In this document: in pieces, positions 19,140 through 45,288 of the stretch
Numbering within the stretch: the first letter of the stretch is position 1
Layout of the letters: every line of letters begins with the position of its first letter
Assembly: GCF_019222765.1 (NCBI RefSeq)
Contig: NZ_CP078145.1
Span: forward strand, 5,642,001-5,706,000
DNA length: 64,000 nt
Source: Nocardia iowensis
GTDB lineage: Bacteria > Actinomycetota > Actinomycetes > Mycobacteriales > Mycobacteriaceae
Reading direction: 5' to 3'
Program-made: the position numbers and the translations under genes
Notes under the pieces: model-generated
Seen by the model: only the letters and a program-made list of their open reading frames with translations
Database searches by the model: none
Told to the model about the DNA's origin: nothing

Positions 19140-20905
19140 CCCTCGAACCCGAAATCGTCATTGTCGGTGCGGGTTTCGGTGGCCTCGGCATGGCCATCGA
19201 GCTGCGCAAGGCGGGTATCGACGATTTCGTCGTGCTGGAGAAGGCCGACGAGATCGGTGGCACCTGGCGGGAGAACACCTATCCCGGCGCGGGCTGCGAC
19301 GTGATGTCGCTGATGTATTCGTACTCGTTCGAGCCGAACAAGCGGTGGACGCGGATGTTCGCCCGCCAGCCGGAGATTCTGGACTACCTGCGCCGCACCG
19401 TCGACAAGTACGACCTGCGCGGGCACATCCGGTTGCGTTCGGAGGTGGTTTCGCTCGACTTCGACGACGCGGACGATCGCTGGGATGTCGGCCTCGCGGA
19501 CGGGCGGCACTTGCGGCCGCGGCTGGTCGTGATGGCGCCCGGCCCGCTGCACGAACCCTCGATTCCGGCTTTTCCTGGTCGAGACACGTTCCGCGGCACG
19601 AGCTTCCACTCAGCGGAGTGGGATCACGACTTCGACGTCAGCGGAAAGCGCATCGCTGTCATCGGAACCGGCGCCAGCGCGGTGCAGTTCGTGCCGCAAA
19701 TCGCCAAGGAAGCCGCGCAGGTAACCGTGTACCAGCGCACCCCGCACTGGATCGTGCCGAAACCGGACCGTCCGCTGTCGGCGCTGGAGCACCGAATGTT
19801 CCGGTATCTGCCCGGCTCGCAACGGCTCTACCGGTGGGCGATCTATTGGGGCTACGAGTCGTTGATCCCCGCGTTCATGAATCCGGAACTGATGCGTCAG
19901 GTGGAAAAGGTCGCCCGTGGCCATCTGCGCCGCCAGGTCAGCGACCCGGAACTGCGCGAACGGCTCACCCCGGACTACCGGCTGGGCTGTAAGCGAATCC
20001 TGGTGTCCAACAACTTCTATCCCGCGCTACAGCGCGACAATGTCGATCTGGTGACCACGCCCATCGCGGGCCTCACCGAGACCGGTGTCGCCACCGTGGA
20101 CGGGTCCGCCGAGGCGTTCGACGCGATCGTCTACGGCACCGGTTTCAAGATCTCCGACCGGTTCGCCGACCAGCACATCGTCGGCGCCAACGGCCTTGCT
20201 CTGCAAGACGCGTGGCGCAATGGGATGGAGGGTTTCCTCGGCGTCGCGGTACACGGCTTCCCCAACCTGTTCCTCATCGTCGGCCCGAATTCCGGTGGCG
20301 GACACCAATCCATCGTGTTCATGATCGAGGCGCAGGCCCGCTACATCCGCCAGTGCGTCGAGCTGCACCGCAAGACCTCCAGCACTCGCATCGAAGTGCG
20401 CGCCGCCACCCAGCACGAATTCAACCGCCGCACCCAAGCGAAACTGGCTGGCACCGTCTGGAACTCGGGCGGCTGCAACAGCTGGTATCTCGATGAGCAC
20501 GGCCTCAACCGCGCCGCCTGGCCCGGCTCCAGCGTCTCCTACTGGCGCACCATGCGCCATCTCGACCCCGGCCACTACGACCTCACCGTCCCCGCGGACC
20601 GCGAACCAGCCCACGAATATTCGGGCCCCGCCACCCTCGACGCCCCCGGCGCACTGCTCCCGGTGACCGTCACCCTCAGCGGCCACGCCGACCCCACCGA
20701 CGGCCGCTACCACTGGTACGGCCGCATCACCCCCACCACCGGCACCGAGCTGCCCGACCCCGGCCGCGCCGAAGTATTCCTGACCCTCCCGGGTTGCTAC
20801 CCCACCGCGGGCCGCCTCCAGGAACGCGACCCCTGGGGCAATCTGCGTATCGTCGGCATCGGCGAGCCGCCCTATCCCCTGGAACCGGCCTACACGTCGA
20901 AGTAG
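19136..20905 (+). CDS. FAD-dependent Baeyer-Villiger-type monooxygenase with C-terminal DUF4873 domain
   Basis: This 589-residue protein has an FAD Rossmann motif ([11 protein letters not shown]), the [11 protein letters not shown] fingerprint of Baeyer-Villiger monooxygenases (FxGxxxHxxxW) and a second NADPH Rossmann motif ([10 protein letters not shown]). After the catalytic core (about residue 490) comes a DUF4873-like beta domain ([19 protein letters not shown]). Such enzymes insert oxygen into ketones or hydroxylate amines. The ATG overlaps the diiron oxygenase stop. Its 3' end overlaps the 3' end of glnA by 16 bp on the opposite strand. Confidence 0.9.
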
Positions 20906-22326: not shown

Positions 22327-22626
22327 GACTCACTCCTCGCACTCGCGGCATCCGCGGATCGGCGAGGCGGGCGCATCCCGCGGCGCGCCCGAGCGGGCGT
22401 GGCAGGTCCGGCTCGCCGAATCCACCATACGACGCCGCGCTCGGCGCCGGAGGTGAATCGCGGTGGCCCGACCACGGTTCGGCGTGTCCTGCGCGTTCAC
22501 TCCGGGCAACGGCACAAAGAACCGCCGTGAGCTTCGGCATTCTGCCGATACCACGCGCCAGGCGCATGGGGTGGGCTGGACCACACGGTGGTGCGCGGCA
22601 CCGCCGGCTCGATCCGGAAGGTCGCC

Positions 22627-24249
22627 ATGAAATTGTCTTCGCCGCGGTTGGCCGTGGTGGGCGCGCTGTGCTGCGCGCTCGCCGTCGGCACGGCTCCGAT
22701 GTACGCGTCCGCCGACCCTAGACAGACCTGGTACGTGAGCGCGGTGGCCCCAGCGGGCGGAAACGGTTCGGAAACAGCACCTTTCAACACCTTGCAGGGC
22801 GTCCAGCAGGCTTCGAATGACGGTGACACGATCGTCGTCCTCGCCGCGCCCGTCGGCACACCACCGCTGGACGGCGGCATCGCCCTCAAACCGGGCCAGC
22901 GCCTGCTCGGCCGCCAGACTCCCGGAAGTGTTCCGGCTGTGGCCAACACGACCACCGCCAACGACGGTGACGCGGTCCGCCTGGCACCGAAGACCGAAGT
23001 CCGCGATCTCACCATCACCAGCGCTCAGCGCGGCGGCATCTACGGCCGCAATGTCGGCGCGGCGGTCCTCGCGGGTAACACGGTCGCCGCCAGCAACCGC
23101 GCCTGCCACGACGGCTTCCTCGTCCAGCCGTTCCCGCCGATGCTCGGCGTCCCGTTCGGCACGTCGCTCCCGGCGGCCCCGAACGTGATCGCGCTGAACA
23201 ACGGCTGGGCGGGCATCATGATCGACTCCGATGCGGGCGCACATACCCTCGTCATCGAACGCAATACTGTGCGCGACACCGCATGTGGTGACGGCATCGA
23301 TGTCCGCACCACCGGCGCGGCGCAAGCCACCGCCACTATCACCGACAACCTGACCGAGAACATCAATCAGGGCATCGCGAAACTCTCCGTCCTCGCCGTG
23401 GGCATGCAGAGCACCGGAACCTCCTCGCTCACCGCCACATTGCGCGGCAACACCCAGCGCAATATCGCCATTCCGGCGAACGACCCACTCAACGCCGCCG
23501 CCGACAGCGAGGGCATTTTCGTCAATGCCGCCGACCGCGCCCGTATGCGAATCACTATCGACCGCAACAGTTATCGGCACGGTGGCGGCCACTTCTCCGC
23601 CAACGGAATCGAATTCGTCACCAGCAACGGCACGCCGGACAGCGAAGTAACCCTTACCAACAGCGAATTCATCGATGTCCCAGGCGATATCGTGGAGAAC
23701 CTCAATCTGAGTGCCGAGGGCGCCAGCCACCGCATGACCATCGACGGCCTTACCGCCGCCCGGTCCAGCTTCCTCGCCGCGGTGTTGAATCCGGTGGTGC
23801 CCGGCAACCTCGGCAGCTGCCTGTTCTCCGCCAGCTTCGGCCGCGACAACACCACCGCGCTGACCCTGCGCAATGCCCATCTCAGTCAGTGCAGCGCCGA
23901 CGGCATCGGCATCTACGCCTACTCCCCCGGCGGCCCCGCCCCGGCGAAGGCGACCATGAGCTTCGACATCGCCGACACCACCGTCGCCGATGCCGCCATC
24001 GCCGACCTGCACGTGCACACCGTCGGCGACCTGGCCGCGCTCACCGGCAAGGTCGAGCGCTCCCGATTCGGCGGCGACGTCGTGCTCACCCAGAGTGGCG
24101 GCAACCTTGGCGCCGGCTCGGTCATCGACTTCGGCGGCGGCCGCCTCGGCAGCGCCGGAAACAACTGTTTCGCCCCCACCACCGAGACCGCGCTCGCGGC
24201 GCCGAACCTACCGGTCGAACATTCGGGATCCTGGCCCACCTGTCGCTGA
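22627..24249 (+). CDS. Secreted right-handed beta-helix protein
   Basis: This 540-residue protein starts with a Sec signal peptide (LAVVGALCCALAVGT ... YASA|DP). The rest consists of repeating short strands typical of pectate-lyase-like parallel beta-helices, for example VIALNNGWAGIMID, VIERNTVRDTACGDGIDV and LTNSEFIDVPGDIVENL. No lyase or hydrolase catalytic set is recognisable, so it could be a surface-associated carbohydrate-binding or degrading protein. I chose the ATG at 22627, preceded by GGAAGG at 6 nt, over an in-frame ATG/GTG upstream. The 300-bp gap to glnA holds only divergent upstream DNA. Confidence 0.8.
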   Translation: MKLSSPRLAVVGALCCALAVGTAPMYASADPRQTWYVSAVAPAGGNGSETAPFNTLQGVQQASNDGDTIVVLAAPVGTPPLDGGIALKPGQRLLGRQTPGSVPAVANTTTANDGDAVRLAPKTEVRDLTITSAQRGGIYGRNVGAAVLAGNTVAASNRACHDGFLVQPFPPMLGVPFGTSLPAAPNVIALNNGWAGIMIDSDAGAHTLVIERNTVRDTACGDGIDVRTTGAAQATATITDNLTENINQGIAKLSVLAVGMQSTGTSSLTATLRGNTQRNIAIPANDPLNAAADSEGIFVNAADRARMRITIDRNSYRHGGGHFSANGIEFVTSNGTPDSEVTLTNSEFIDVPGDIVENLNLSAEGASHRMTIDGLTAARSSFLAAVLNPVVPGNLGSCLFSASFGRDNTTALTLRNAHLSQCSADGIGIYAYSPGGPAPAKATMSFDIADTTVADAAIADLHVHTVGDLAALTGKVERSRFGGDVVLTQSGGNLGAGSVIDFGGGRLGSAGNNCFAPTTETALAAPNLPVEHSGSWPTCR

Positions 24250-24328: not shown

Positions 24329-24385
24329 TTGCCGCTAGCGCACACACTCGCTCATGCGTTCTGCTGATAGGTGACGATGAGGTCA
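24329..24385 (+). promoter_or_regulatory. 57-bp upstream element, copy A (before fadD)
   Basis: This segment aligns without gaps to 27495-27551, with 42 of 57 identical bases. Conserved blocks are TTGCCG, then after 16 variable bases CTYATGCGTTSTGCTGA, and GYGACGATGAGGTCA. The spacing of TTGCCG and the YATGCG block resembles a promoter; TGAC-N6-GTCA at its end is a possible operator. It ends 58 nt before the fadD TTG start. Confidence 0.6.
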
Positions 24386-24443: not shown

Positions 24444-26249
<1,806 letters not shown>

Positions 26250-26269: not shown

Positions 26270-27442
26270 ATGATGCCATCGCGGACTCGGGTGTTCGACG
26301 ATCTCCATCGGCGGACCGCGTCGATGCTCGACGGGTTCTACGCCGCGCTGCCGCCGTACCAGCGGCTGCCGCAATCCTTGGTGGAGACCGACTTCGCCCG
26401 GGGCACCAAGCTCAACGTGGACCTGTTCTTCGAGTACCTGCGCCGCGGCGAGGAGCCGACGGAGGAGGACACCAGGGAACTCGTCGAGCTCGCGATGGAC
26501 CGGTTGCGCGACGGCACCCCGCTGCCCGAGGTGCTGGAGCGCTACCGGCTCGGCGCGGCGTTCATCTGGGAGCGGTTGCGCGCGACGGCCAGCCCGCCGG
26601 AGCGCGAACTGCTGCTCGACGCCTCGCTGGTGCTGCTGAAGTACGTCACGCTGGTCACCTCGCGGATCGCCACCGCGGCCACCCAGCGCGTGCACGACCC
26701 GCGCTGGGAGCTGTTGGAGCGCCGGCGCGGCATCGCCGACGCGCTGCTCACCGGCCGTGACCCGGTGGAGTGGGCCAACGATCCGGTGATTCCGGTGTCC
26801 GACGCGTTCCTCGTCGCGGTGTTCCGCCTGTGCGGCACCCGCGGCGGGCCAGCGTCGGCGCTGCGGCACCGGGTCGAGGCGATACCTGGGGTCTTCCTGC
26901 GGTTGGACGCGGGCGGCTGGACCGCGTTGATTCCACTACAGACCGGTGACGACGGCTCGGCCACGCTGTCCGGGCTCACCGCCCGGCTGCCCGCGCAGGA
27001 GCCCGCCGAGCCGCCGCCGTACTGGGTCGGCGTCGGCGCGGCGCGCAGCAAGGACGCGATCCCGACGATGTACGCCGAGGCGCGGGTACTCGCCGAGCTC
27101 GGCCGGTGCCTGCTCCGGCGCGACATCCTGTGCCGCAGACAGGATTTGCAGTTCGAATACACCGTCGCGGTGAGCGACGCGGCCCGCCCCGGGCTGGCCT
27201 CGGTGCTCGCGCCACTGGATGCGCAGCCGATGCTCGCCGAGACCCTGGAGGTGTTCGTCGACAGCGGCTTCAACCAGCTGGCGACGGCACGGCAGCTCAA
27301 TGTGCACCGAAATACGGTCACCTATCGGCTTTCCCGGGTGCACGAGTTGACCGGACTCGACCCGCATCGTCCCGCCGACGCGATGACCCTGTCCGCCGCA
27401 CGGCTGGCCAGGCGACTCGAATCCGCCGGGTTCGCCCCATAA
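26270..27442 (+). CDS. PucR/CdaR-type helix-turn-helix regulator
   Basis: This 390-residue protein ends with a PucR C-terminal HTH (LAETLEVFVDSGFNQLATARQLNVHRNTVTYRLSRVHELTGLD). The N-terminal two thirds have the RsbRD-like and GGDEF-like layout common in actinobacterial members of this family. It starts with tandem ATG codons at 26270, with GGGAAGAAG upstream. It lies 20 bp after fadD and probably forms an operon with it. The duplicated element in front of fadD and of the downstream hydrolase makes those two genes its likely targets (inference). Confidence 0.88.
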   Translation: MMPSRTRVFDDLHRRTASMLDGFYAALPPYQRLPQSLVETDFARGTKLNVDLFFEYLRRGEEPTEEDTRELVELAMDRLRDGTPLPEVLERYRLGAAFIWERLRATASPPERELLLDASLVLLKYVTLVTSRIATAATQRVHDPRWELLERRRGIADALLTGRDPVEWANDPVIPVSDAFLVAVFRLCGTRGGPASALRHRVEAIPGVFLRLDAGGWTALIPLQTGDDGSATLSGLTARLPAQEPAEPPPYWVGVGAARSKDAIPTMYAEARVLAELGRCLLRRDILCRRQDLQFEYTVAVSDAARPGLASVLAPLDAQPMLAETLEVFVDSGFNQLATARQLNVHRNTVTYRLSRVHELTGLDPHRPADAMTLSAARLARRLESAGFAP

Positions 27443-27494: not shown

Positions 27495-27551
27495 TTGCCG
27501 GTGTCGCCGCACCCCGCTTATGCGTTGTGCTGAGTAGCGACGATGAGGTCA
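27495..27551 (+). promoter_or_regulatory. 57-bp upstream element, copy B (before CocE-like hydrolase)
   Basis: This is the partner of 24329-24385: same length, same block order and spacing, 42 of 57 bases identical. It ends 131 nt before the TTG start of the hydrolase gene. The remainder of the interval to that gene is open from an ATG inside the element (27543) to a TGA at 27684-27686. Confidence 0.6.
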
Positions 27552-27682: not shown

Positions 27683-29740
27683 TTGAGAATTGCATCCCGG
27701 GCACGGGCTCCCCGCCGCACCGTGACGGTCGCCGCCGCGATCACCGCCATCGGCTTGATCCTCCAGCTCACGCCCGCCGCGAACGCCGTGCCCGCCGCGG
27801 GACCGGTGCCGAACGCGCCCGCGAATTTCGGCCTGCCCGCCGGTTATCAGCCCACGCCGGAGCGCTACGGCATCGCCTACGAACTGGGACATATCGTCCC
27901 ACTTTCGGACGGCACCCAATTGCAGACCGAGGTGCGCTACCCGACCGATCCCGCCACCGGAGCGCGCGCCGCGGGCGAGTTCCCGGTCGTCGTCAACTTC
28001 ACTACCTACGGCGCGCTGTCGAGCGCACTGACGGCCGCGGTGACCAGCGTGATCGACACACTGCACATCCCGCTGCCCGACCAGCTGAAGGACGCGCGCC
28101 GAATCATCAACCAGGCCACCAGCGCTCAGGACATGCTGGTCCGGCGCGGCTACATCGAGGTGATCGCCGACGTGCGCGGCACCGGCGGATCGACCGGCGC
28201 CTGGAACCCTGCCTCCCAGCAGGACGGCCTGGACGGCGCCCAACTGGTCGACTGGGCGGCGAAGCTGCCCGGCTCCAACGGCAAGGTCGGCATGTTCGGG
28301 TACTCGTTCCCGGCGCTGTCCGCATTGCGCACGGCCGAATCCGTTTCGCCCGGTTCGCCGTTGAAGGCGATTGTGCCGATGGCCATGCCCAACAACATCT
28401 TCAACGAGGTGCTCGGCCACGACGGCATGATGAGCCCGATCCTGCTCACCGCCATCTCGGTGCTGGTGCCGTACCTGAGCTTGATCGGCCCGTTCATGAC
28501 GGCGGTGGTCTCGCCGCAGCTGTTCATCAAGACCCTGGTCGATCATTTGCAGGCGGTGGTGTCCTCGGACAGCACGATCAAGCTGCTGCTCGAGGCGTAC
28601 GCGGGCGGCCCACTGGCCTACGACGGCCAGTGGTGGCAGGACCGCCGGTTCGAGACCGATCTGCACAAGGTCGTCGAGAACGACATCGCCATGTACCAGG
28701 TCGGTGGGCTCTGGGATCTGTACCAGGAAGGCCCGTGGCGCAACTACTCCCAGCTGCAGAACCTCGCCGCGGGCAAGGACCAGTTCGCGCCGATGGCGCC
28801 GGGGCAGCCCACCGACGGACGGTTCCAGCTGCTGATGGGCCCGTGGTACCACGTCGGCCTCGGCTTCGGGCCCGGCTCGCGGCTGGACACCGACATGATC
28901 ACGGTGGCCTGGTTCGACCGCTGGCTCAAGGACATTCCGAACGGAATCGACAAAACCGACAAACCGCTGCACGTGATCGATCCGAACAACATGGCGGTCG
29001 CGACCGCGCGATATCCGTTCGAGCAGGCGGGGATTCAGCAGCGGTACTTCGACGGTGATCGACTGGTCGCGCAGCCGCCCGCGGTCGAGGACGCGTCGGA
29101 TCGGCTGGATTACACCGGCATCGACACCATCTGCAACCGGCAGAGCCTCGGCCAGTACAGCGCGGGCCTGTTCGATTTCCTGTTCCGCCTGTTCAACGCC
29201 TACAACCCGTGCACGGAGTGGGTGCAGGAACCGGTGGCCGGACGCCGCTACACGATGGACCCGGTGACCGAGCCGACCGTGCTGGCCGGACCCAGCAGCG
29301 TCACCCTCTACGCGTCCTCTACCAGCAACGATGCCGCCTTCCAGGTCTGGCTCGACGATGTCGCGCCGGACGGTTCGGCGGTCAACATCACCGGCGGCTC
29401 CCAGTTGGCCAGCCAGCGCACGTTGAACGACGAAAAGACTTGGCGCGCAACGGATGGCACGATCTACGCGCCGGAACACGTCATCCGCAAGGATGCCGAA
29501 CAGCTGTTGACGCCCGGCGAGGTGACCAAACTGGAAGTCAAGATCCGCCCCACCTTCTACCGATTGGAGCCGGGACACGCCCTGCGCCTTCGCATCACCA
29601 GCGGCACGTTCCCGTCGACCATACCGATTCCGACTGATTTGCCGCGGTTGCTCGGTTCGTCCCAGCAGATCCACCGGGACGCCGCCCGCCCGTCCAGCCT
29701 GGTCGTGCCGCTCGCACCGGCATCCGCCTTCGGCGGCTGA
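27683..29740 (+). CDS. Exported CocE/NonD-family alpha/beta hydrolase (X-Pro dipeptidyl-peptidase-like)
   Basis: This 685-residue protein starts at TTG with an Arg-rich n-region (MRIASRARAPRRT) and a signal peptide ending near NAVPA. The hydrolase domain has the nucleophile elbow FGYSFP (Ser208) within the family pattern after ADVRGTGGSTG; a lid region and a C-terminal jelly-roll domain (PTVLAGPSSVTLYAS ...) complete the CocE architecture. Family members hydrolyse esters, acyl groups or prolyl peptides outside the cell. Here the usual GxSYxG is GYSFPA, so the residues after the Ser differ. AGG-type ribosome binding sequence precedes the TTG. Confidence 0.88.
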   Translation: MRIASRARAPRRTVTVAAAITAIGLILQLTPAANAVPAAGPVPNAPANFGLPAGYQPTPERYGIAYELGHIVPLSDGTQLQTEVRYPTDPATGARAAGEFPVVVNFTTYGALSSALTAAVTSVIDTLHIPLPDQLKDARRIINQATSAQDMLVRRGYIEVIADVRGTGGSTGAWNPASQQDGLDGAQLVDWAAKLPGSNGKVGMFGYSFPALSALRTAESVSPGSPLKAIVPMAMPNNIFNEVLGHDGMMSPILLTAISVLVPYLSLIGPFMTAVVSPQLFIKTLVDHLQAVVSSDSTIKLLLEAYAGGPLAYDGQWWQDRRFETDLHKVVENDIAMYQVGGLWDLYQEGPWRNYSQLQNLAAGKDQFAPMAPGQPTDGRFQLLMGPWYHVGLGFGPGSRLDTDMITVAWFDRWLKDIPNGIDKTDKPLHVIDPNNMAVATARYPFEQAGIQQRYFDGDRLVAQPPAVEDASDRLDYTGIDTICNRQSLGQYSAGLFDFLFRLFNAYNPCTEWVQEPVAGRRYTMDPVTEPTVLAGPSSVTLYASSTSNDAAFQVWLDDVAPDGSAVNITGGSQLASQRTLNDEKTWRATDGTIYAPEHVIRKDAEQLLTPGEVTKLEVKIRPTFYRLEPGHALRLRITSGTFPSTIPIPTDLPRLLGSSQQIHRDAARPSSLVVPLAPASAFGG

Positions 29741-30181
29741 GACAGCAGGGGCGCCCGCGCCGGAAAGATCCGACTCAGGTGTGTCTCAGGTCACGTTTAG
29801 CGCTCCTTAAGCGTCAGGACCTGTAAAGATCATGCAAACCTGGGATGAATTCCAGGTGCATTGAGACACACTGTCCGGCAATCTATCAGCTACCTGAACA
29901 TTAAGCATTTCACATTGTCGCTGGCAGCGGCGTTGCACTGGCCCATTGCATGGCCCGCAACGCCGTTGTCCGCGTTCGGGGGGCAAATACCGGTGATCGA
30001 GCTCACCGTCACATTCACCGAGAATTTCTTCTACAGTTTCTCTCGTTCCGGTTCGACGATGACGTCCCGGGACCGGTTCCGACAAAGTTTCTCGGATGCA
30101 GGCCGATATTCTTGTCACTATTCGGATCGGCAATTCCCTTACCGCGCATGGGAATTACCGATGGGCAGCTGAAGGTGTGTC
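29741..30181 (+). other. 441-bp non-coding stretch with nested inverted repeats
   Basis: No frame here has the codon use of the neighbours, and base composition is visibly less GC-rich. It contains a perfect 10-bp inverted repeat (GTGTGTCTCA at 29779-29788, complement at 29862-29871). Inside that lies a 6-bp hairpin (ACCTGG/CCAGGT, 29838-29857). It probably combines the terminator of the hydrolase gene with the control region of the condensation-domain operon, whose first ATG is preceded by GAAGGTG. Confidence 0.5.
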
Positions 30182-31633
30182 ATGGAATTCATCGAACTGG
30201 CCGACTACCCGTTGCCGAGCGGCCGTGTGATCGAGTGGCTCCCGACTGCCACTTCACACTGGGCCGACTGGCCACGAGATACTCGCGCCGTTTCTTATAA
30301 CCACGAGCATCATCTTCGAGATGCGGTGGAGCACAGTCGAATACGAGACCGTCGCCACTACTGGCTCGGACACGCGTTCCGCATCGACGGACCGCTGGAT
30401 CCGCAGGCCTGGCGTAGCGCCTTCGATGCCTGGATCGACCGGCACGAAGGACTGCGCTCGCATGTCGCCATCGAGGGCGGCAAGCCGGCCAGGTACACCC
30501 TGCCGCCCGGTGAGATCCGGGTGCAGCCGGTCGACGCGGGCGCGCCCACCTCGACCATGGCGACATACCGCCTGGTCCACGGCCTGCTCGACGACGGCAC
30601 CTCACCGCTGCGGTGGCCGTCCTACGTCTGCGTGACCATTGCCGGTCGCGACGGCTTCACCGTGGTATTCGCGGCCGACCATTCGATCATGGACGGCTAC
30701 TCGACCATCTCCACCGGTGGCGAGCTGCACGCGCTCTACAACGCGGCTCGCGCGGGCGAAACGGCACAGCTGGTCGAGACCGGCAGCTACGTCGACTTCT
30801 CCCAGGACGAGCGCGTCCGCGCCGCCACGGCCACCGCGGACAACCCCGCGGTGGAGACCTGGCGCACGTTCTTTCCGGAGAACACCGAGAACGACCTGCC
30901 CTGCGGCACGCTCAGCAAGGTCGCCGCGGCACCGATCGAGCTCAACGGTCCCGCGGAGGCGCCGACGCGGCGGGTGGCGCAGCGCAACCTGTCGGTGGAG
31001 GTGCTCGACGCCGACGCGGCCGATGCCGCGTCGGTGGTCGCCAGGGAACACGGTCAGGGCTTGTTCGCCGCCCTGCTCGCCGCGTTCGCGGTGACGACCA
31101 CCGAACTCGGTGCGGGACGGGATTTCCGCACAGTGATCCCGCTGCATACCCGTACCGAGCCACAGTGGGTTGACACCCTCGGCTGGTTCGTCGGGCTCGC
31201 GCCGTTCCAGCTGGATTGCGGTCCGGCCCGCAATCTGTCCGACCTCATCACCCCGGCGGGCGAGGAGCTGCGGCGCACCCGCAGCGCGGCAACGGTGCCG
31301 TTCGCCAGGGTCTGCGAGCTGCTCGGCACTCGGCCGCGCATCTCGTTCATGGTGTCCTACATGGATGTTCGGGCGGCAGCGTCCGCCGCCACCTGGGCCG
31401 ATACCGACACCCGGTGGCTGCGCAGCCGCAATGTGTCCGCCGACGAGTTCTTCTTCTGGTTCCTTCGCACGCCACACGGCGTGACGCTCAACATGCGCTA
31501 CCCCGGCACCACCAAGGCGACGCGCGATATCCACCGCCATGTCCTGCGCATGCGCGATCTGCTCGCCGAGTTCACCCGCTATGGAGACGCCCGAATCCGT
31601 CCGATCGAAGGAGCGCCGCTGTCATGGAGATGA
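30182..31633 (+). CDS. Stand-alone condensation-domain acyltransferase-like protein 1
   Basis: This 483-residue protein has the fold pattern of NRPS condensation domains and PapA-type acyltransferases. The catalytic HxxxDG motif is HSIMDG at residues 167-172 (FAADHSIMDGYS), and GWFVGLAPFQLD corresponds to the conserved segment that lines the acceptor tunnel. No adenylation or carrier domain is attached. PapA relatives move acyl groups from CoA or carrier proteins onto lipid or sugar hydroxyls. GAAGGTG lies 4 nt before the ATG. Its end overlaps the next gene by 10 bp. Confidence 0.85.
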   Translation: MEFIELADYPLPSGRVIEWLPTATSHWADWPRDTRAVSYNHEHHLRDAVEHSRIRDRRHYWLGHAFRIDGPLDPQAWRSAFDAWIDRHEGLRSHVAIEGGKPARYTLPPGEIRVQPVDAGAPTSTMATYRLVHGLLDDGTSPLRWPSYVCVTIAGRDGFTVVFAADHSIMDGYSTISTGGELHALYNAARAGETAQLVETGSYVDFSQDERVRAATATADNPAVETWRTFFPENTENDLPCGTLSKVAAAPIELNGPAEAPTRRVAQRNLSVEVLDADAADAASVVAREHGQGLFAALLAAFAVTTTELGAGRDFRTVIPLHTRTEPQWVDTLGWFVGLAPFQLDCGPARNLSDLITPAGEELRRTRSAATVPFARVCELLGTRPRISFMVSYMDVRAAASAATWADTDTRWLRSRNVSADEFFFWFLRTPHGVTLNMRYPGTTKATRDIHRHVLRMRDLLAEFTRYGDARIRPIEGAPLSWR

Positions 31634-33075
31634 CCCTCACCGAAGACTGGTTGCCGAAGCCGGGCGTGCTGCTGGAATTCACTCCCACCGCGGCCAGCCG
31701 GGCGGCCACCGCGGCGGCCACGCCGTCCGACGCGCCCGCGACCTACGTGCAGGAGTCGCACATCCGCCGCTGGGCCGCGCGCAGGCATACCGCGGATCCG
31801 CTCGCGTCCGAGCTGTCGCTGTGCTTCTCCGTCGCCAGCCCGCTGGACGCGGACGCGCTGCGGCGCGCCTTCACCACGTTCCTGCAGCGTCACGAAAGCT
31901 TGCGGTCGTGGTTCGAGCTAGACGAGTCCGCAGGCAAGTTCGCGCTCACCCGCTACCTGCTCGAACCCGGCGCTGTCGAGCTGGAGACGACGACCGTCGG
32001 CGCCTTCGACTCCGGCGAGGAACTGCGCGACCTGCTGGTCGAGAAGTTCCATGCCAGTGCCGAGCCGATCAAGTGGCCGGCGTTCCTCTGCGGCGCCATC
32101 GATCACGGCGCCGACGGCTTCACCCTGGTCTACAACACCGACCACGCGTTCAGCGACGGCCTGTCGCTGGTCACCGCGATCTTCGAATTGCACGCCCTCT
32201 ACACGGCCTACTCGACCGGTCAGGAGCCCGTGCTGCTCCCGGTGGGCAGCTACGTGGAGTTCGCGCGGAACGAGCGGGCCGCGGTGGCCGCCAATCCGCC
32301 CGAACTGGACAAGCTCGCCACCCTGATCGCCGACAGCCTGGACAAGGTGCGGCCGCTGCCGATCGACCTCGGACTCGCCCCCGGTGAGCTCGCCGACAGC
32401 AGGGGAACCAAGGTCGATCTGCTCGATGCCGCCGAATGCGAGGCGTTCTCGGAGGCGTGCAAGGCCGCGGGTGGTTCGTTCTCGGCGGGCCTGTTCGCCG
32501 CGATCGCCCTGGCCGAGCTCGAATTCGCCGGGCGCACCCACTATCTCGGCCTCAATGTGGTCGGCACCAGGCAGGAGCCGCAGTATCAGCTCGCACAGGG
32601 TTGGTTCATCAACCTGCTGCCGATCTCGTTCGAGGTCGACCCGACCGACCACTTCACCGATCTCATCGGCCGCGCCGGTGTCGCGCTCGACTGGGTGAAA
32701 CCCCTGGCGAGCGTGCCGATTCACGCCGCACTGGAGCGGGCCGCCGAGCTGACCGGCGCATCGGTGCCCGCCACGACGGACTGGCCTTGGGTGTCGTACA
32801 TGGATGTGCGCGCGATTTCCGGTGCGGCACTGGAGAACGCGCTGCCCAACGTGCACGGGATCAACGGTCTCGGCTCCCGCGCCCGGATGGGCCAGACCTC
32901 GCCCATGTGGTTCAGCCGGGAGCTGGACCGCCTGCACGTCAGCATGATGTTCCCGGACACCCCGGCCGCGGCGACATCGGCGGCGGCCTATCTGGATTCG
33001 ATCCGCACCGCCCTGCGCGCCATCGCCACCACCGGCGAGTACACCGCGACCACACCGGATTTCGCGAGGTCATAA
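31624..33075 (+). CDS. Stand-alone condensation-domain acyltransferase-like protein 2
   Basis: This 483-residue paralog of the preceding gene carries the catalytic motif HAFSDG at residues 174-179 (YNTDHAFSDGLS) and the matching GWFINLLPISFEV segment. The ATG at 31624 overlaps the end of the first gene by 10 bp, and its stop shares one base with the ATG of the third, so the three are translationally coupled. Sequence divergence between the paralogs suggests different substrates rather than simple gene dosage. Confidence 0.86.
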   Translation: MEMTLTEDWLPKPGVLLEFTPTAASRAATAAATPSDAPATYVQESHIRRWAARRHTADPLASELSLCFSVASPLDADALRRAFTTFLQRHESLRSWFELDESAGKFALTRYLLEPGAVELETTTVGAFDSGEELRDLLVEKFHASAEPIKWPAFLCGAIDHGADGFTLVYNTDHAFSDGLSLVTAIFELHALYTAYSTGQEPVLLPVGSYVEFARNERAAVAANPPELDKLATLIADSLDKVRPLPIDLGLAPGELADSRGTKVDLLDAAECEAFSEACKAAGGSFSAGLFAAIALAELEFAGRTHYLGLNVVGTRQEPQYQLAQGWFINLLPISFEVDPTDHFTDLIGRAGVALDWVKPLASVPIHAALERAAELTGASVPATTDWPWVSYMDVRAISGAALENALPNVHGINGLGSRARMGQTSPMWFSRELDRLHVSMMFPDTPAAATSAAAYLDSIRTALRAIATTGEYTATTPDFARS

Positions 33076-34454
33076 TGCAGCTGCTGTTTCTCGACCAGCT
33101 GAGCGCGCCGCCGGGCACCCTGCTCGAGTGGACCGCGCTCGCCGAGCCCGGCCCCACGCCGGACGCGACGCCCCCCTCCGCCAACCAGTCCATCCATCTG
33201 TCCTCGGCCGGACCGACCACCTGGCTCGCCGCCACCTTCGACGTGGCCGGTCCGATCGACGAATCCGCACTGCAGACGGCGTTCTCGGCGTGGCTGCCGC
33301 GCCACGACGCGCTGCACTGCAGCTTCGAACCACCGCGGGACGGCAAGCCGCCGTCGGTGCACGTGGTGATGGACACCGACATCCGGCTGGTCCCCCAGCA
33401 GGCCGTCGAAACCGCGTCCACCGAGGAGCTGCGCGCGGTGCTCGGCGCGCGGCTCGATCAGGCCTGCTCGCCGTTCAGTTTCGCGCCGTATTTCCTCGGC
33501 GCGGTCAGCAGGCCCGAAACGTCCACCATTGTCTGCGGTTTCGACCATGCCGTGTGCGATGCCTGGTCGATCACCATCGCGGTGGCCGAACTGGACGAGC
33601 TGTACCGGGCCGCCTGCGAAGACGGCCACGACGGTGCCGTCGCGGCCGCCGACCGGCTGCCCGAACCGGGCAGTTTCCTGTCCTATTCGACCCGGGAAGC
33701 CGCCATTCCGGCGGCGGCCACCGGCCCGCTGATTCGTGCGTGGCGTGACTTCTTGCACGCCGCGGGCAACGATCTGCCGCACTTCCCGCTCGATCTGGGC
33801 CTGCCCGCCGGGTCGGTGGCCCCGTTCGGCAGCGATGTGCGGTTGCTGCTCGGCGCCATGGCCACCGATGCGCTGCACCGCAAGTCGCGGGCGGACGGAT
33901 ATTCGATGTTCGCGGCGCTGCTCGCTGCGGTGGCGATGGCCGCGGCCGAGCTCGGCGGGCGCACCGGGACCGACCTGGTGTTCCCGGTGCATACCCGGCG
34001 AGAGCCGCGGCACCACAACACCTTCGGCTGGCTGGTGTCGAACGCGCCGGCGCATGTGCCGGTGGCGCACGACTTCTGCGCCACCGCGCAGGCCGCCGAC
34101 GACGCGGTCCGGGCAGGACAGCGCTTGGCGCAGGTCCCGGCGAACCGGGTACTCGCCGCGATGGGCAGCGACCTGAAGCGGACGAGGCAGGATCTGTTCA
34201 GCGTCTCCTACACCGACTACCGGCGACTACCCGGCGGTTCGCGCAGCGACACCACCCGCACGGTGCCCCGAAATCCGGCCCAGCTCAGCCGCTGCGCGCC
34301 GTTGGACGACGTGCAGATGTGGTTCACCCGCACCGACGACGGGCTCGCGCTGCGCACCCGTTTCCCCGCGACACCCACCGCCGGGCCGTTGATCGCCGAG
34401 TTCCTCGACAAGGTCGCCGCGACCTTGTCCACCGCGATCTCGGTTCGGGTATGA
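33075..34454 (+). CDS. Stand-alone condensation-domain-like protein 3 (HxxxDA variant)
   Basis: This 459-residue paralog is the last of the three. The active-site motif reads HAVCDA at residues 158-163 (GFDHAVCDAWS): His and Asp are kept, but the usual Gly is Ala. GWLVSNAPAHV matches the tunnel segment. It may be active with altered specificity, or a non-catalytic partner of the other two. Its ATG overlaps the previous stop (TAATG). No other domain is attached. Confidence 0.82.
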   Translation: MQLLFLDQLSAPPGTLLEWTALAEPGPTPDATPPSANQSIHLSSAGPTTWLAATFDVAGPIDESALQTAFSAWLPRHDALHCSFEPPRDGKPPSVHVVMDTDIRLVPQQAVETASTEELRAVLGARLDQACSPFSFAPYFLGAVSRPETSTIVCGFDHAVCDAWSITIAVAELDELYRAACEDGHDGAVAAADRLPEPGSFLSYSTREAAIPAAATGPLIRAWRDFLHAAGNDLPHFPLDLGLPAGSVAPFGSDVRLLLGAMATDALHRKSRADGYSMFAALLAAVAMAAAELGGRTGTDLVFPVHTRREPRHHNTFGWLVSNAPAHVPVAHDFCATAQAADDAVRAGQRLAQVPANRVLAAMGSDLKRTRQDLFSVSYTDYRRLPGGSRSDTTRTVPRNPAQLSRCAPLDDVQMWFTRTDDGLALRTRFPATPTAGPLIAEFLDKVAATLSTAISVRV

Positions 34455-34560: not shown

Positions 34561-35421
34561 ATGAAGGCTCTGGTCAGCAACGACTTCTCGACGTCACCGG
34601 ACGCCGAAGCCCCCGACGGACCGCAGTGGCAGGGCAGCGCACTACTGCGGCCGGGCATCCTGGCCTTCGCCGGGGAAATCCTGCCGACGGAACTCCATGC
34701 CCACCACGCCGTGCAGGTCGTCGCCGCCTGCACCCCCGTAGTCATCGTGGACGGTAGCGGGGTGCGGCGGCAGGGCACGCACATCATCGTGCCCACCGAC
34801 GCGCCGCACCGGGTCTGTGTCGGCGCCACGCACGGCATCGCCGTCTACCTCGACCCGGAAACCGTCGCCGGTGCGGCCGCCGACCGGCGGGCGCACCTGC
34901 ACGGCTGGGCGCAGCCGCTAAGTGTCGATCCGGCAGACGCGCCCGGCGTCGATCGAACACACACGCCCGGCGTCGATCGAACACACACGCCCGGCGTCGA
35001 TCGAACACAGCGCCAACTCGCCGGGCACGTGGCCGACGTCCTCGCGGATCTCCTGCGGGACAACGCGGCACCGTCCACCGACGATCGGCAGGGTGTGGTG
35101 GCCGCGGCCTTGCAGTTGCTGCCCGACCTGGTCCGGGACGGCTCGGTCCGCGGCTCGGATGTGGCACGCCAACTGGGCATTTCGGCGACCCGGCTCACCC
35201 ACCTGTTCACCGAACAGGTGGGCATTCCGTTGCGCCGCTACATCCTCTGGCTACGTCTGCACATCGCGATGACGCGGGTGATGGCGGGCGACGATGTGAC
35301 CACCGCGGCCGCCGCGGCCGGTTTCACCGACAGCGCCCACCTGACCCGCACCTGTCGGCGCACCTTCGGGCTGCCGCCGTCGATGATGAGCCGCGAGGTC
35401 GACTGGGATATCGGACTCTGA
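34561..35421 (+). CDS. AraC-family transcriptional regulator with tandem-repeat linker
   Basis: This 286-residue protein has an N-terminal cupin-like sensing part (HAHHAVQVVAACTP) and a C-terminal AraC DNA-binding domain with two HTH motifs (SDVARQLGISATRLTHLFTE and VTTAAAAAGFTDSAHLTRTCRRTFG). The linker contains three in-frame PGVDRTH/Q units encoded by a 24-bp tandem repeat. It lies 106 bp after the third condensation-domain gene on the same strand, so it may control that operon. Confidence 0.87.
   Translation: MKALVSNDFSTSPDAEAPDGPQWQGSALLRPGILAFAGEILPTELHAHHAVQVVAACTPVVIVDGSGVRRQGTHIIVPTDAPHRVCVGATHGIAVYLDPETVAGAAADRRAHLHGWAQPLSVDPADAPGVDRTHTPGVDRTHTPGVDRTQRQLAGHVADVLADLLRDNAAPSTDDRQGVVAAALQLLPDLVRDGSVRGSDVARQLGISATRLTHLFTEQVGIPLRRYILWLRLHIAMTRVMAGDDVTTAAAAAGFTDSAHLTRTCRRTFGLPPSMMSREVDWDIGL
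34940..35009 (+). repeat. 24-bp tandem repeat, 2.9 copies, inside the AraC gene
   Basis: The unit starts CGCCCGGCGTCGATCGAACA and runs 34940-34963, 34964-34987 and 34988-35009; the copies are identical over their shared length. Being a multiple of three, it keeps the frame and encodes an eight-residue repeat in the linker between sensor and DNA-binding domains. Confidence 0.92.
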
Positions 35422-35445: not shown

Positions 35446-35745
35446 ATGATCACGCGCGCTCGGCTGATGACGTATGCGGTTGTCGCATTCGTCCTGCCCG
35501 CGCTCGTGCTGTTCGCGATACCGGCCGGTGAGCCGGGATCGGTGGCCGTCGTCGGCATGGTCGCGGCGTCGCTGTTCGTCGCGTTCGCCACGCTGCACAC
35601 CGCCGCCGGTCTGCCGCTCCCCCAGGTCGGTTCGGGTCCGCCGCCGTCCGCGCAACGGCGCCGACGTGGCTCTTTCCTGCGCCAGAGCAATCCCGACACC
35701 CCCGGGCGTCCACGCCCACGAGCACCAGGGTTCGCGACCGCCTGA
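35446..35745 (+). CDS. Small membrane protein, DUF6412-like
   Basis: This 99-residue protein has two hydrophobic segments (LMTYAVVAFVLPALVLFAIP and SVAVVGMVAASLFVAFATL) and a basic Pro/Arg-rich tail. It matches what is found next to a YidC/Oxa1 gene in related genomes (DUF6412 family, from memory). TATGCT lies 6 nt before the ATG, and CGGAGG is directly adjacent, too close to act as a normal ribosome binding site, so a leaderless mRNA is likely. The YidC gene follows after 94 bp. Confidence 0.72.
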   Translation: MITRARLMTYAVVAFVLPALVLFAIPAGEPGSVAVVGMVAASLFVAFATLHTAAGLPLPQVGSGPPPSAQRRRRGSFLRQSNPDTPGRPRPRAPGFATA

Positions 35746-35839
35746 CGTCCACTCCGCAGCTGCTGCGGGGTGCCGTCGGCGTTGTCGTCGAACCCTTCCG
35801 TTCTCGTGCGCGCACGCACGCCCACAGTCAGGTGCTCTC

Positions 35840-36724
35840 ATGCTCGACTTCGTCTACTACCCCGTGTCCGCCATTCTCTGGCTCTGGCACTACGCCTTCG
35901 CCGCCGTCCTCGGACCCGCCAGTGCACTCGCCTGGGTGCTTTCGGTGGCTTTTCTCGTCCTCACTCTTCGCGCTGCCCTTTTTGTGCCATTTCTAAAGCA
36001 GGCTCGCACGCAAGCGATTGTTAAAAAATTGCAGCCGAAGGTCGCTGGGTTGAAACAAAAATACGCAAACGATCGTCGCCGCCAGGCGACCGAGCTACAG
36101 AAATTGTATAAAGACAATGGCATCAATAGCTTCGCGACACTGATTCCGCTCATCGGTCAGCTATTTGTCTTCGCCGGGTTGTTCCATGTGCTGCGCTCGT
36201 TCGACCGCACCGCCGCACTCGGACACCTGCCGTTCCAGGCAATCGCGACACCGATGACACCCGAGCAAAACGCCGCGACACCCAATTACGTGTTCGGCGC
36301 CACCGATGTCCAGTCGTTCCTACAGGCGAAAATCTTCGGTGCACCGCTGTCGGCCACCGTCGCGGGCGCTGGCGACCTGCTGGCAACGGTGGCCGTCATC
36401 GCCATCCCGTTGACCTTGATCGCCGCTGTAGCAACACATTTCACCGCCCGGGCGTCACTGTCCCGGCAGGACACCCCCACCCAGTTCGCCTTCATGCGCC
36501 CGCTCACCCTGTGGGCGTTCCCGGCGGCTGCCCTCGTCGGCGGCGCCCTACTCCCGGTGGCGATCCTGCTCTACTTCGTCACCAACAACGCCTGGACCCT
36601 GGCCCAACAACACTTCGTCTACCACCGTCTCGACGCCGAAGCCGCCGCCGAAGCACAACGCACGGCCGCCGTCCGCGCGGCATCGGCCCCGAAACCCGGC
36701 GCCAAGCCGGTCCGCCGCCGCTAG
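35840..36724 (+). CDS. YidC/Oxa1 family membrane protein insertase (accessory paralog)
   Basis: This 294-residue protein has the five-helix YidC/Oxa1 core: an N-terminal helix, the charged cytoplasmic hairpin (LQPKVAGLKQKYANDRRRQATELQKLYKDNGIN), then FATLIPLIGQLFVFAGLFHVLR and three further helices. YidC inserts membrane proteins and helps fold them. It is not in the rnpA-yidC-jag context of the housekeeping copy, so it is probably a second insertase. Codons across 35,950-36,150 are unusually AT-rich for this genome. A hairpin overlaps its stop codon. Confidence 0.88.
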   Translation: MLDFVYYPVSAILWLWHYAFAAVLGPASALAWVLSVAFLVLTLRAALFVPFLKQARTQAIVKKLQPKVAGLKQKYANDRRRQATELQKLYKDNGINSFATLIPLIGQLFVFAGLFHVLRSFDRTAALGHLPFQAIATPMTPEQNAATPNYVFGATDVQSFLQAKIFGAPLSATVAGAGDLLATVAVIAIPLTLIAAVATHFTARASLSRQDTPTQFAFMRPLTLWAFPAAALVGGALLPVAILLYFVTNNAWTLAQQHFVYHRLDAEAAAEAQRTAAVRAASAPKPGAKPVRRR

Positions 36725-43092: not shown

Positions 43093-44628
43093 CTACAGGT
43101 GCATCAGCGCGGGCCACACCTGCGACCATGGATGGCGCAGCCCGGCGCACTTCCAGATGACCACTTCCTGAGTGTTGCCGGGATAGCCGATGCGCGAATC
43201 CACCTTGCCGACCGGCTCGACGCGTTCGAAATCCCACCGCAGAAACGCCTCGTTCATGGCCACGGCGATCACCACCGTCGCGGCGTCGGGCGGTGCGCCG
43301 AAGTAGCCGTAGCCGCGGCTCGGACTGTAGATCGGCGGCAGTCGATCGCGCGCGAACTGATCCAAAGCGCTTGCCTGCCAATAAGTGTCGGTGACGATCA
43401 CCGCACCGGACCGCTGCGGCGGAGGCAGTGTGTCGTAGCTCCGCTCGACGGCATCGGTCAGCTCCGGCCAGCCGAATTCGCCGTAGACACCGATATTGAT
43501 GGTGGCCTCCGCGTCGTCGGCTGGCGGCTCGATCGTGGACGCGTCCCGCCACGGCGTGGCCCACAACACAAACCCCGTCGCGGCCAGCGCCAACACAACC
43601 CCCGCTCCGGTGCACACGCGCCGACCGATGCCCCGCAGACCCCGCACCAGCTCCACCAGCCCGACCGCGCCCGCGGCCAGCACCACGCCGTACATTCCGG
43701 CCACGTAGTAGATCCGCCCGCCGATCGTCAGAAAGATCGCCACCAGGACCAGCAGCGTCCAGCCGAGGAACCGGTACGGCCGCAACGAGGCATTGCGCAG
43801 CAGCGCCCACACCCCGTACAGCAGCACCACCGCGCCGAGGTACCCGGCGGTCAGCACCGCCAGCGGCACGAACATCAGCCTGCCGCCGAGAACGCCCTGC
43901 TCGCCGCTGATCACCTCGCCCATCGCCAACTGCGGCCAGTCGTGCTCGGCCTGCCAGATCAAGGTCGGCACCGTCGCGAGAACCACGATCGCGCCACCCA
44001 GCCACAGCAGCGGCCTGCGCACCAGTTCACGCGGCCCGAACACCAGCGAGGTCACCGCGACACCGATCCAGAAGAACGGGATCAGCCACTTCACCTGCAT
44101 GTCGACCGCCGTCACCAGCGCCGCGCACAGCAGCAACCCGTCGCGGCGGGTGCGCACCCAGCGCACCACGAGCCAAGTGATGATCACCCACAACACCGTG
44201 TCCACCGCGTTGGTCGTCAGCATCTTGCCCTGCAACAACAGGAACGGCGATGTCGCGTAGGCGATGGCGGCGACGAGCTGGGCGGCACGACCGCCACCGA
44301 GTTCGCGGGCGATGAGCGCGGTGAGCACGATCGCCAGCACGGTCAGCAGCACGGCGGGCAGGCGAAGCACGAAGAACGAACCCGGGGCGAGGATGTCCAT
44401 CAACCGGGCGAGCATCGGCAGCACGGGGCCTTGGTCGGCATAGCCGAACGAGGGGTGCCGTCCGGCGGCCAGGAAGTAGAGCTCGTCGCCGAAGTAGTCG
44501 TAGCGGCTCGCGGAGAACAGCAGCACCGCCGCCGAGATCGCGGCAACGACGGTGATGCCCGAGGTCGCGAGGGGTGGGCGAAGGTCTGCTCCGGTGTCGA
44601 GCTCCGGGCGTTCTGCGGTGTGGGTCAC
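43093..44628 (-). CDS. Polytopic GT39-like glycosyltransferase (copy 1)
   Basis: This 511-residue protein has about ten to twelve membrane segments. The first periplasmic loop has the motif RYDYFGDELYFLAAGRHPSFGYADQGP, with the conserved acidic residues of GT39/ArnT-type transferases that use polyprenyl-phosphate sugars. The C-terminal part is soluble (AVIVTDTYWQASALDQF). Likely role: transfer of a sugar to a cell-envelope acceptor outside the membrane. GTG start at 44628 with AGGAG 6 nt upstream. A paralog with the same layout lies at 60132-61652. Confidence 0.85.
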   Translation of the reverse strand: MTHTAERPELDTGADLRPPLATSGITVVAAISAAVLLFSASRYDYFGDELYFLAAGRHPSFGYADQGPVLPMLARLMDILAPGSFFVLRLPAVLLTVLAIVLTALIARELGGGRAAQLVAAIAYATSPFLLLQGKMLTTNAVDTVLWVIITWLVVRWVRTRRDGLLLCAALVTAVDMQVKWLIPFFWIGVAVTSLVFGPRELVRRPLLWLGGAIVVLATVPTLIWQAEHDWPQLAMGEVISGEQGVLGGRLMFVPLAVLTAGYLGAVVLLYGVWALLRNASLRPYRFLGWTLLVLVAIFLTIGGRIYYVAGMYGVVLAAGAVGLVELVRGLRGIGRRVCTGAGVVLALAATGFVLWATPWRDASTIEPPADDAEATINIGVYGEFGWPELTDAVERSYDTLPPPQRSGAVIVTDTYWQASALDQFARDRLPPIYSPSRGYGYFGAPPDAATVVIAVAMNEAFLRWDFERVEPVGKVDSRIGYPGNTQEVVIWKCAGLRHPWSQVWPALMHL

Positions 44629-44784
44629 GCCAGCTCCTGGAGGACTTCCGGGACGGGACTGCTCGAATGTAGCGGGAAACGGCCGTCGCGCCCGGTCACC
44701 CGCCGGGCGCGTCCGACCCGGCGTTTCGCGGTACCGGCAGGTACTTGTCTGGTTTCGATCCGTGCCGCGTTCGATACTGAGGTC

Positions 44785-45288
44785 ATGAGCGACGCAGTAC
44801 CGGGCGAAAACCCTTATGGCACACCGTCCACGACCGGACCGCAACCGATCCCCTCGGCACAGGCCGTGACCAACAAAATCGTCCGGACGCTACTGCGCGT
44901 ACCCGCGGTCTCCGGCCTCGTCGGCAAACGCCTGCTGACGCTGCACGTCGTCGGGCGCAAGTCCGGCAAGGTCTACGACGTGCCGGTGGCCTATACCAGG
45001 CACAACGGCACCCTGCTGATCGGCACCGCCCTGCGGCCGTGGGTGAAGAACCTGCAGGCGGGCGGCCCGGTCCAGGTGTCGATGGGCGGCAAGCCGCGGA
45101 CCTTCGACCCGGTGGTGCACACCGAGCAACGCGACGTCATGCGGCTCTACGAGGTCATCGCCAGGGACAACGCGACCAACGCGAAGTTCAACGGGATCGG
45201 TTTCACCGCCGATGGTTCGCCGAACAAGGCCGACCTGTACCAGACGTGGCAGCAGGGTGGCGTCGTCATCGCGCTGACGCCGCGCTGA
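44785..45288 (+). CDS. Nitroreductase/quinone reductase family protein (deazaflavin-type)
   Basis: This 167-residue split-barrel protein has LTLHVVGRKSGKVYDVPVAYTRHNGTLLIG and RPWVKNLQAGGPVQVSM, the pattern of the F420-dependent DDN-related family. The substrate is unknown. GATACT lies 6 nt before the ATG and may be a leaderless -10. A strong hairpin follows the stop codon. Confidence 0.83.
   Translation: MSDAVPGENPYGTPSTTGPQPIPSAQAVTNKIVRTLLRVPAVSGLVGKRLLTLHVVGRKSGKVYDVPVAYTRHNGTLLIGTALRPWVKNLQAGGPVQVSMGGKPRTFDPVVHTEQRDVMRLYEVIARDNATNAKFNGIGFTADGSPNKADLYQTWQQGGVVIALTPR

Follow-up and report, generated by a model that had tools for sequence, protein, structure and literature searches.

Which reaction do three adjoining condensation-domain proteins catalyze at a locus that holds no nonribosomal peptide synthetase (NRPS)? 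This question is raised by a 64,000-nucleotide stretch of the Nocardia iowensis genome (bases 5642001-5706000 of 8.95 Mb; this whole stretch is called the window), in which the genes C1, C2, and C3 follow each other head to tail with overlaps of 10 bp (C1/C2) and 1 bp (C2/C3). An earlier note on this DNA described them as divergent, overlapping paralogs of 459-483 residues with the HxxxD motif of condensation domains, related them to the PapA acyltransferases, and proposed a pathway toward a multiply acylated lipid or small molecule that has no described counterpart. The trio is a PapA-type three-enzyme acylation cassette that is free of polyketide synthases (PKSs) and most likely serves the formation of a multiply acylated trehalose-type glycolipid.

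Family and catalytic motif of the trio

Sequence comparisons support C1, C2, and C3 as PapA-type acyltransferases rather than NRPS modules. The condensation-domain family PF00668 is the sole Pfam family in each protein and is matched with 86.6, 80.5, and 47.5 bits, respectively, all above the cut-off of 30.6. The paralogs are 31-33% identical to each other, and the D-H-x-x-x-D motif is invariant in the ortholog alignments of C1 (19/19), C2 (26/26), and C3 (24/24). PapA2 (6AEF) is the top match of all three in every sequence search of the PDB and also ranks first in structure comparisons of the predicted C2 and C3. The coordinates, overlaps, divergence, motif, and family assignment of the earlier note hold. 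The PapA5 model NF006787 gives 22.3 bits for C1, against a cut-off of 396, and does not list C2 and C3; the best 50 structural matches listed for C2 and C3 are without PapA5, which carries no weight.

The low score of C3 leads to the question whether all three proteins are catalytic. Only one or two of them might be, with the other, most likely C3 (HxxxDA), taking the role of a partner or scaffold, and the residue that follows the C3 motif is indeed an alanine instead of a glycine in 18/24 orthologs. However, the histidine and aspartate of C3 are kept throughout, and its predicted fold is complete (pLDDT 93.5). The alanine looks tolerated because the other 6/24 C3 orthologs retain the glycine, and it is also found in 5/19 C1 orthologs. 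A noncatalytic member of the trio is quite improbable.

The surroundings of the trio in the window agree with the claim that no NRPS or PKS is present. In a genome-wide scan, PF00668 has 80 matches, of which C1, C2, and C3 alone lie in the window, and none of the 106 carrier-domain matches (PF00550) or the 34 ketosynthase matches (PF00109) of the genome falls inside it. The FadD-type ligase upstream of the trio is the sole AMP-binding protein among the window genes examined, and Pfam and genome-wide scans of the window found no adenylation and carrier domains in cis or adjoining the trio. No MMPL protein is present among the window genes examined either; the PKS and MmpL partners of the mycobacterial style, which are typical but not defining, are absent at the trio.

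The genome is otherwise rich in NRPS, and the trio could act in trans with these as stand-alone condensation enzymes that join carrier-bound or free amines or alcohols. Such a role would resemble that of SgcC5, a stand-alone NRPS condensation enzyme. The shared superfamily, the many family matches of the genome, and the presence of SgcC5 (4ZNM) among the structural matches of C2 and C3 are in its favor. Yet SgcC5-type enzymes score much below PapA2 in sequence and structure, all three proteins match PapA2 far better than they match any NRPS domain, and the nearest NRPS ends ~74 kb upstream of C1, outside the carrier-free window. A condensation role in trans is therefore very unlikely.

Three ancient clades in a conserved order

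In a 68-protein tree whose outgroup consists of an NRPS condensation domain and a further protein of the window's genome, three clades separate (bootstrap/SH-aLRT): C1 with 100/99 (19 rows), C2 with 100/99 (32 rows), and C3 with 98/99 (14 rows), the base of the latter being joined by one more protein (L209). Each clade holds one gene of Amycolatopsis anabasis (L139, order C1-C2-C3) and one gene of L204, a genome from another family of the order, together with proteins of Rhodococcus, Williamsia, and Nocardia. Because each clade samples these genera, the triplication is older than the split between Amycolatopsis, Rhodococcus, Williamsia, and Nocardia. Judged from this phylogeny, the trio represents three ancient clades of paralogs, and their order is kept in these four genera; the branching order among the clades is weakly supported (83/22).

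The C1 profile was used to fetch 75 named loci. By clustering, C1, C2, and C3 are adjacent in 42 of them (14 from Nocardia, 28 from others), to which the tree adds L139. Another 11 loci (R. erythropolis, R. opacus, Prescottella defluvii, and others) are labelled C1-C3 by clustering; L107, the only one of these in the trees, carries adjacent C2-clade and C3-clade genes with a C1-clade gene ~1.5 kb further. The remaining 21 are without an adjacent trio and mostly show a single gene beside sufE-accA3, some being cut by contig ends.

The 28 trio loci outside Nocardia are accompanied by a glycosyltransferase of the GT28 or GT2 kind (27 loci), a DrrA/B-type ATP-binding cassette (ABC) pair (8 loci), and sseA or accA3 (28 loci). 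The R. fascians-type order is the trio, sseA, sufE, a fourth PapA of the C1 clade, and accA3. The Amycolatopsis trio has an alpha/beta hydrolase and an MMPL exporter next to it on the downstream side. In many rhodococci (L097 and other Rhodococcus/Williamsia loci), the interval from sufE to accA3 contains a PapA-type gene (C1 clade where placed), also at loci in which no trio was observed.

Within Nocardia, 148 genomes were surveyed by profile searches, the genome of the window included. True C3 was defined by at least 566 bits (next score 291.8) and true C1 by at least 626 bits (next score 394.2). These bit-score thresholds are needed because other PapA-like genes are common across the genus and blur the weak counts: C2 is matched at E 1e-3 in 148/148 genomes, the C3 profile at E 1e-60 in 129, and the C1 profile at E 1e-70 in 61. 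Strong C3 is found in 27/148 genomes and strong C1 in 28/148, which include all 27 C3 genomes, and C2 lies between C1 and C3 in 27/27 genomes with both. Twenty-one of these cassette genomes are of the window type (own genome included), and six (G021, G038, G111, G124, G128, and G136) represent a second type, in which an ABC exporter and glycosyltransferases accompany the trio. The trio arrangement is not due to chance because the same genes occur in the same order in 21 + 6 of 148 genomes. For the earlier note, the gene order across Nocardia was a check on its proposal and a lack of co-conservation in related genomes an objection to it; the order C1-C2-C3 is kept in the 27 genomes, and co-conservation holds.

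In the 28th strong-C1 genome (G113), the tandem set (L051) is divergent and contains no strong C3; G128 has such a set too. Two Nocardia genomes (L051 and L052) thus contain a divergent relative of the cassette, a tandem of genes of 451, 491, 473, and 441 residues that adjoins an ABC exporter and PucR; the 441-residue gene is a candidate family member. A lone C2 ortholog adjoins FadD-PucR in three genomes (L048-L050).

Faster change of C2 in one Nocardia clade

Compared with N. ninae, N. suismassiliense, N. colli, N. altamirensis, and N. tenerifensis (L034, L035, L036, L038, and L039), the window C1 and C3 are 86-92% and 86-94% identical, respectively, but C2 only 71-75%, whereas all three are 88-90% identical to their counterparts in N. 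vulneris and two kin. The identity drop in the N. suismassiliense alignment begins and ends at the edges of the C2 gene, which suggested an import of C2 from a distant species. This was rejected: the synonymous divergence (dS) of C2 is only slightly raised (0.50-0.61 vs 0.36-0.51 in C1/C3) while the nonsynonymous divergence (dN) is high (0.17-0.19 vs 0.03-0.09), so that faster protein change is the better reading than replacement. The amino-acid change of C2 is ~two to six times faster than that of C1 and C3 at similar synonymous divergence. The two C2 types differ by 47 fixed differences, 17 of which fall into residues 121-210 around the motif (binomial p 0.0035, only suggestive since this region was chosen after inspection). 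A shift in C2 specificity is a reasonable guess from these comparisons.

Neighboring genes and a common promoter element

The features of the locus are collected in Table 1.

Table 1 Features of the trio locus, with positions in the window
Feature	Position	Strand	Remarks
Common promoter element upstream of FadD	24373..24384	+	GACGATGAGGTC
FadD-type acyl-CoA ligase, presumed acyl-CoA supplier	24444..26249	+	AMP-binding and AMP-binding_C_3
PucR-family regulator	26291..27442 (start could be 26147)	+	PF13556, gene call
Common promoter element upstream of hydrolase	27539..27550	+	GACGATGAGGTC
CocE/NonD-type hydrolase	27683..29740	+	TIGR00976 200.6 bits, cut-off 66.3
Dyad GGTGA-N6-TCACC upstream of C1, operator candidate	29992..30007	+	both halves kept in 12/13 aligned loci
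Common promoter element upstream of C1	30055..30066	+	GACGATGACGTC
C1, PapA-type acyltransferase, C1 clade	30182..31633	+	motif DHSIMDG; ATG..TGA, 483 aa
C2, PapA-type acyltransferase, C2 clade	31624..33075	+	motif DHAFSDG; ATG..TAA, 483 aa
C3, PapA-type acyltransferase, C3 clade	33075..34454	+	motif DHAVCDAWS; ATG..TGA, 459 aa
AraC-family regulator, downstream of trio	34561..35421	+	PF12833

The flanking FadD, PucR, hydrolase, and AraC genes had been recognized before and are each matched by family models. The PucR gene probably forms one transcription unit with FadD, and the hydrolase is probably exported, as predicted from an N-terminus that is hydrophobic and signal-like when judged by eye. 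Twenty window-type relatives are known from the survey, of which 17 were fetched with wide flanks and 16 are uncut on the upstream side. The FadD-PucR pair precedes C1 in 14/16 uncut loci, and the hydrolase is placed between FadD-PucR and C1 in 9/16. Downstream of the trio, the 17 fetched relatives carry AraC (9), a YidC paralogue (11), TetR (5), and a flavin adenine dinucleotide (FAD) monooxygenase (4).

The window contains three copies of the 12-mer GACGATGASGTC, one each in front of FadD, the hydrolase, and C1, against a Markov expectation of 0.05. The whole genome contains 29 copies in 8.95 Mb, which corresponds to ~0.2 per 64 kb, and the reversed control has 0. The site was first noticed as a conserved block before C1 and then used to find the copies at FadD and the hydrolase, which makes the enrichment test partly post hoc. 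Look-alikes are also common in the window DNA, since the C1 site has 39 matches at up to 2 mismatches where 14.6 are expected. It is the position at the locus, and not rarity alone, that makes the element informative: among the 17 fetched loci, the exact element precedes C1 nine times, FadD eight times, and the hydrolase five times, with no copy inside a gene, and the looser RACGAYGASGTC precedes C1 in 15/17. The FadD and hydrolase promoters have the longer block ATGCGTTSTGCTK-N6-GACGATGAGGTC in common. Proximity and the common promoter element together support a coupling of FadD, PucR, and the hydrolase to the trio, and PucR would be the regulator that binds the element.

As a genome-wide regulon marker the 12-mer was rejected, as its 29 copies comprise the 3 of the window, 20 inside called genes, 4 intergenic ones, and 2 in NRPS condensation matches; two of the intergenic ones stand in front of a kinase-domain gene and a flavin monooxygenase (FMO)-like gene, with no evident link. 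The dyad upstream of C1 is weak when taken alone (1 in the window vs 0.10 expected; 10/100 shuffles reach 1). A small open reading frame upstream of C1 (29993 onward) is open in the window, and its conserved stretch is non-coding because insertions and deletions break the frame in relatives; it was taken as promoter or leader DNA.

Further genes were observed around the locus. AraC is followed by a second insertase gene of the YidC type (35474-36724; the other copy of the genome is at 8945630), and a PAP2-DAGK lipid enzyme gene lies ~5 kb past C3 (39654-41312). Cluster members of a PMT_2-type mannosyltransferase-like gene (43093-44844) are near the trio in 4/17 fetched relatives and also adjoin other single PapA genes within the genus. 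Upstream, an AurF-type N-oxygenase gene directly precedes a gene for a flavin monooxygenase whose C-terminal domain is DUF4873 (18240-20905), and a right-handed beta-helix protein gene (22588-24249) just upstream of FadD keeps its position in several close relatives.

Known counterparts and their products

Rhodococcus sp. I2R is reported to carry the genes papA3-papA1-papA3 followed by a fourth papA (starts 137187, 138665, 140099, and 143010) and to make succinoyl di- and trisaccharide esters (PMC8396431). The printed starts and lengths fit three head-to-tail genes, a 1.5-kb gap of sseA-sufE size, and a fourth gene, and thereby the C1-C2-C3-sseA-sufE-PapA layout of L085-L100, in a comparison by printed coordinates and not by sequence. 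The link between cluster and product is an inference of that paper and not a knock-out result (PMC8396431). TlsA, the succinoyl-trehalose-lipid transferase of Rhodococcus sp. SD-74 cited there, is counted here with the I2R cluster among the closest known systems. The claim that no described counterpart exists is thus only partly right, given this published papA3-papA1-papA3-papA3 cluster; homologs do match a glycolipid locus, the locus itself being only partly characterized.

The window trio and the I2R-type cluster are alike in their three head-to-tail papA genes, and the I2R look-alikes L097 and L100 fall into the C1, C2, and C3 clades. These look-alikes have glycosyltransferases, whereas the window locus has FadD, PucR, and the predicted exported hydrolase instead. 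The window proteins are ~33% (C2) and 34-41% (C3) identical to those of R. fascians and Williamsia.

Three products are reported in PMC4365757: a succinic trisaccharide tetraester of Rhodococcus fascians NBRC 12155, a pentasaccharide succinic octaester of 'Nocardia corynebacteroides' SM1, and a succinic trehalose tetraester of Nocardia farcinica BN26. L097 is R. fascians NBRC 12155 itself, with C1-C2-C3 and the fourth PapA, and L130, Rhodococcoides corynebacterioides NBRC 14404, has the same set. One trio strain and one trio species are hence associated with reported makers of multiply acylated oligosaccharide lipids.

The second Nocardia version (L053, L054, L058, L059, L064, and L066) has the three clades, the order, and the genus in common with the window but brings export and sugar-transfer genes of its own, namely an ABC exporter, two GT28 genes, and in some loci GT2. 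Its C1 is 33-37% identical to the window C1 (five of six aligned). A GT28 partner elsewhere in the window's genome was considered and rejected: there is one 43% match at 2134701 with an ABC-permease-like neighbor, and nothing ties this match to the trio.

The open-access literature searched yielded no description of a three-clade PapA cassette with conserved order, nor of a descent of mycobacterial PapAs from its middle gene. A Nocardia gene-cluster survey (PMC7413640) does not contain 'condensation domain', and 'papa' occurs there only within 'papaic'.

Relation to mycobacterial-type PapAs

The trio resembles PapA2, PapA1, and PapA3 of mycobacterial acyl-trehalose biosynthesis in the stand-alone condensation fold of ~450-490 residues, the HxxxD motif, and a FadD in the setting (PMC6996325, PMC4183827, 6AEF). 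The residue before the motif histidine is an aspartate in the trio and an alanine in PapA2. For a wider comparison, C1 and C3 served as queries against 28 genomes of one other genus; the C1 search listed 53 places, from which 33 proteins were fetched. These genomes are taken as mycobacteria because, of 10 PapAs obtained with wide flanks, six lie next to a gene of ~2,080-2,100 residues, the size of a PKS, and MMPL is confirmed for one neighbor.

All 33 placed mycobacterial-type PapAs (33/33, genus inferred) form one clade inside C2 (SH-aLRT 99), and the 14 of them included in the 68-protein tree reach a support of 100/100. Because of this placement, with which the PapA2 scores agree, the known mycobacterial PapAs, represented by the inferred genus and one named protein, PapA2, look like descendants of the C2 paralogue. 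The placed proteins belong to the C2 clade alone, and 6/10 of those with wide flanks lie beside a PKS-size gene, whereas the window has three adjacent clades and no PKS.

A separate locus of the window's genome (L067, 3329001-3349000) resembles mycobacterial acyl-trehalose loci: it encodes an AMP-binding ligase, proteins of a putative esterase family, a PapA of the C2 clade, a PKS (ketosynthase, acyltransferase, dehydratase, reductase, and ketoreductase), and an MMPL exporter.

Proposed function of the cassette

In the proposed pathway, FadD would supply acyl-CoA, and C1, C2, and C3 would act in turn as O-acyltransferases on a single sugar acceptor, for which trehalose or an oligosaccharide built on it is most likely. 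We infer the acyl-CoA as donor and a sugar hydroxyl as acceptor for all three enzymes. The PapA2-like C2 is the best candidate for the first acylation, after which C1 and C3 would esterify other hydroxyls, so that the resulting glycolipid would carry at least three acyl groups. Outside the cell, acyl chains may be trimmed or moved by the exported hydrolase. PucR probably turns on FadD, the hydrolase, and the trio jointly via the common promoter element. Taken as a whole, successive acylation of one sugar by C1-C3 with these roles for FadD, the hydrolase, and PucR is the best explanation of the locus, with a probability of about 0.68. Of the multiply acylated lipid or small molecule put forward in the earlier note, PapA-type acylation is supported, and the product would be narrowed to a multiply acylated sugar lipid.

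Several observations weigh against this explanation. The genes examined from 18240 to 41312 include no recognizable exporter, PKS, or trehalose gene, and the nearest recognized glycosyltransferase-like gene is the PMT_2 gene 8.6 kb past C3; the proposed sugar acceptor for this reason rests on the relatives. C1 reaches only 69.6 bits to PapA2 (single sequence), the fold predictions cover C2 and C3 only, and FadD scores 719.8 bits on the FadD11 model, below the cut-off of 950. FadD-PucR is missing upstream in 2/16 uncut loci and the hydrolase in 7/16, so that neither is indispensable nearby. The R. fascians-type loci carry a fourth PapA of the C1 clade that the window locus does not have, and the matches between strains and products rest on strain or species names, not on mutants.

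The trio might instead acylate a glycosylated or polyol small molecule, a specialized metabolite, and not a trehalose lipid of the cell surface. This would suit the lack of recognized trehalose and exporter genes near the window trio, the patchy occurrence of C1 with C3 in the genus (27/148), and the PucR and AraC regulators, which fit an inducible metabolism. However, the relatives adjoin glycosyltransferases and DrrAB or MMPL exporters in strains or species known for acyl-oligosaccharides, and carrier and ketosynthase domains are absent from the window. A small-molecule acceptor is accordingly unlikely, and a trehalose-type glycolipid is preferred as the product.

Significance of the three-enzyme cassette

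A broader reading joins these results, although its odds are slightly less than even. C1-C2-C3 would be the surviving ancestral cassette of mycolic-acid bacteria and their kin, with one sugar position for each enzyme, and PapA1-PapA3 would stem from the middle gene, which was later joined to PKS and MmpL. The Nocardia product would be an undescribed PKS-independent multi-acyl glycolipid, and one Nocardia clade would have re-tooled C2.

If this is true, the well-studied acyltransferases of mycobacterial trehalose lipids would be one branch of an older three-enzyme system. C1 and C3, for which no study was found in the open-access literature searched, could be assayed without a PKS. The cassette would offer a candidate enzyme for each acyl position of rhodococcal and nocardial glycolipids (biosurfactants and envelope lipids) and would explain how a sugar lipid with three or four chains is built from plain FadD-activated acids.

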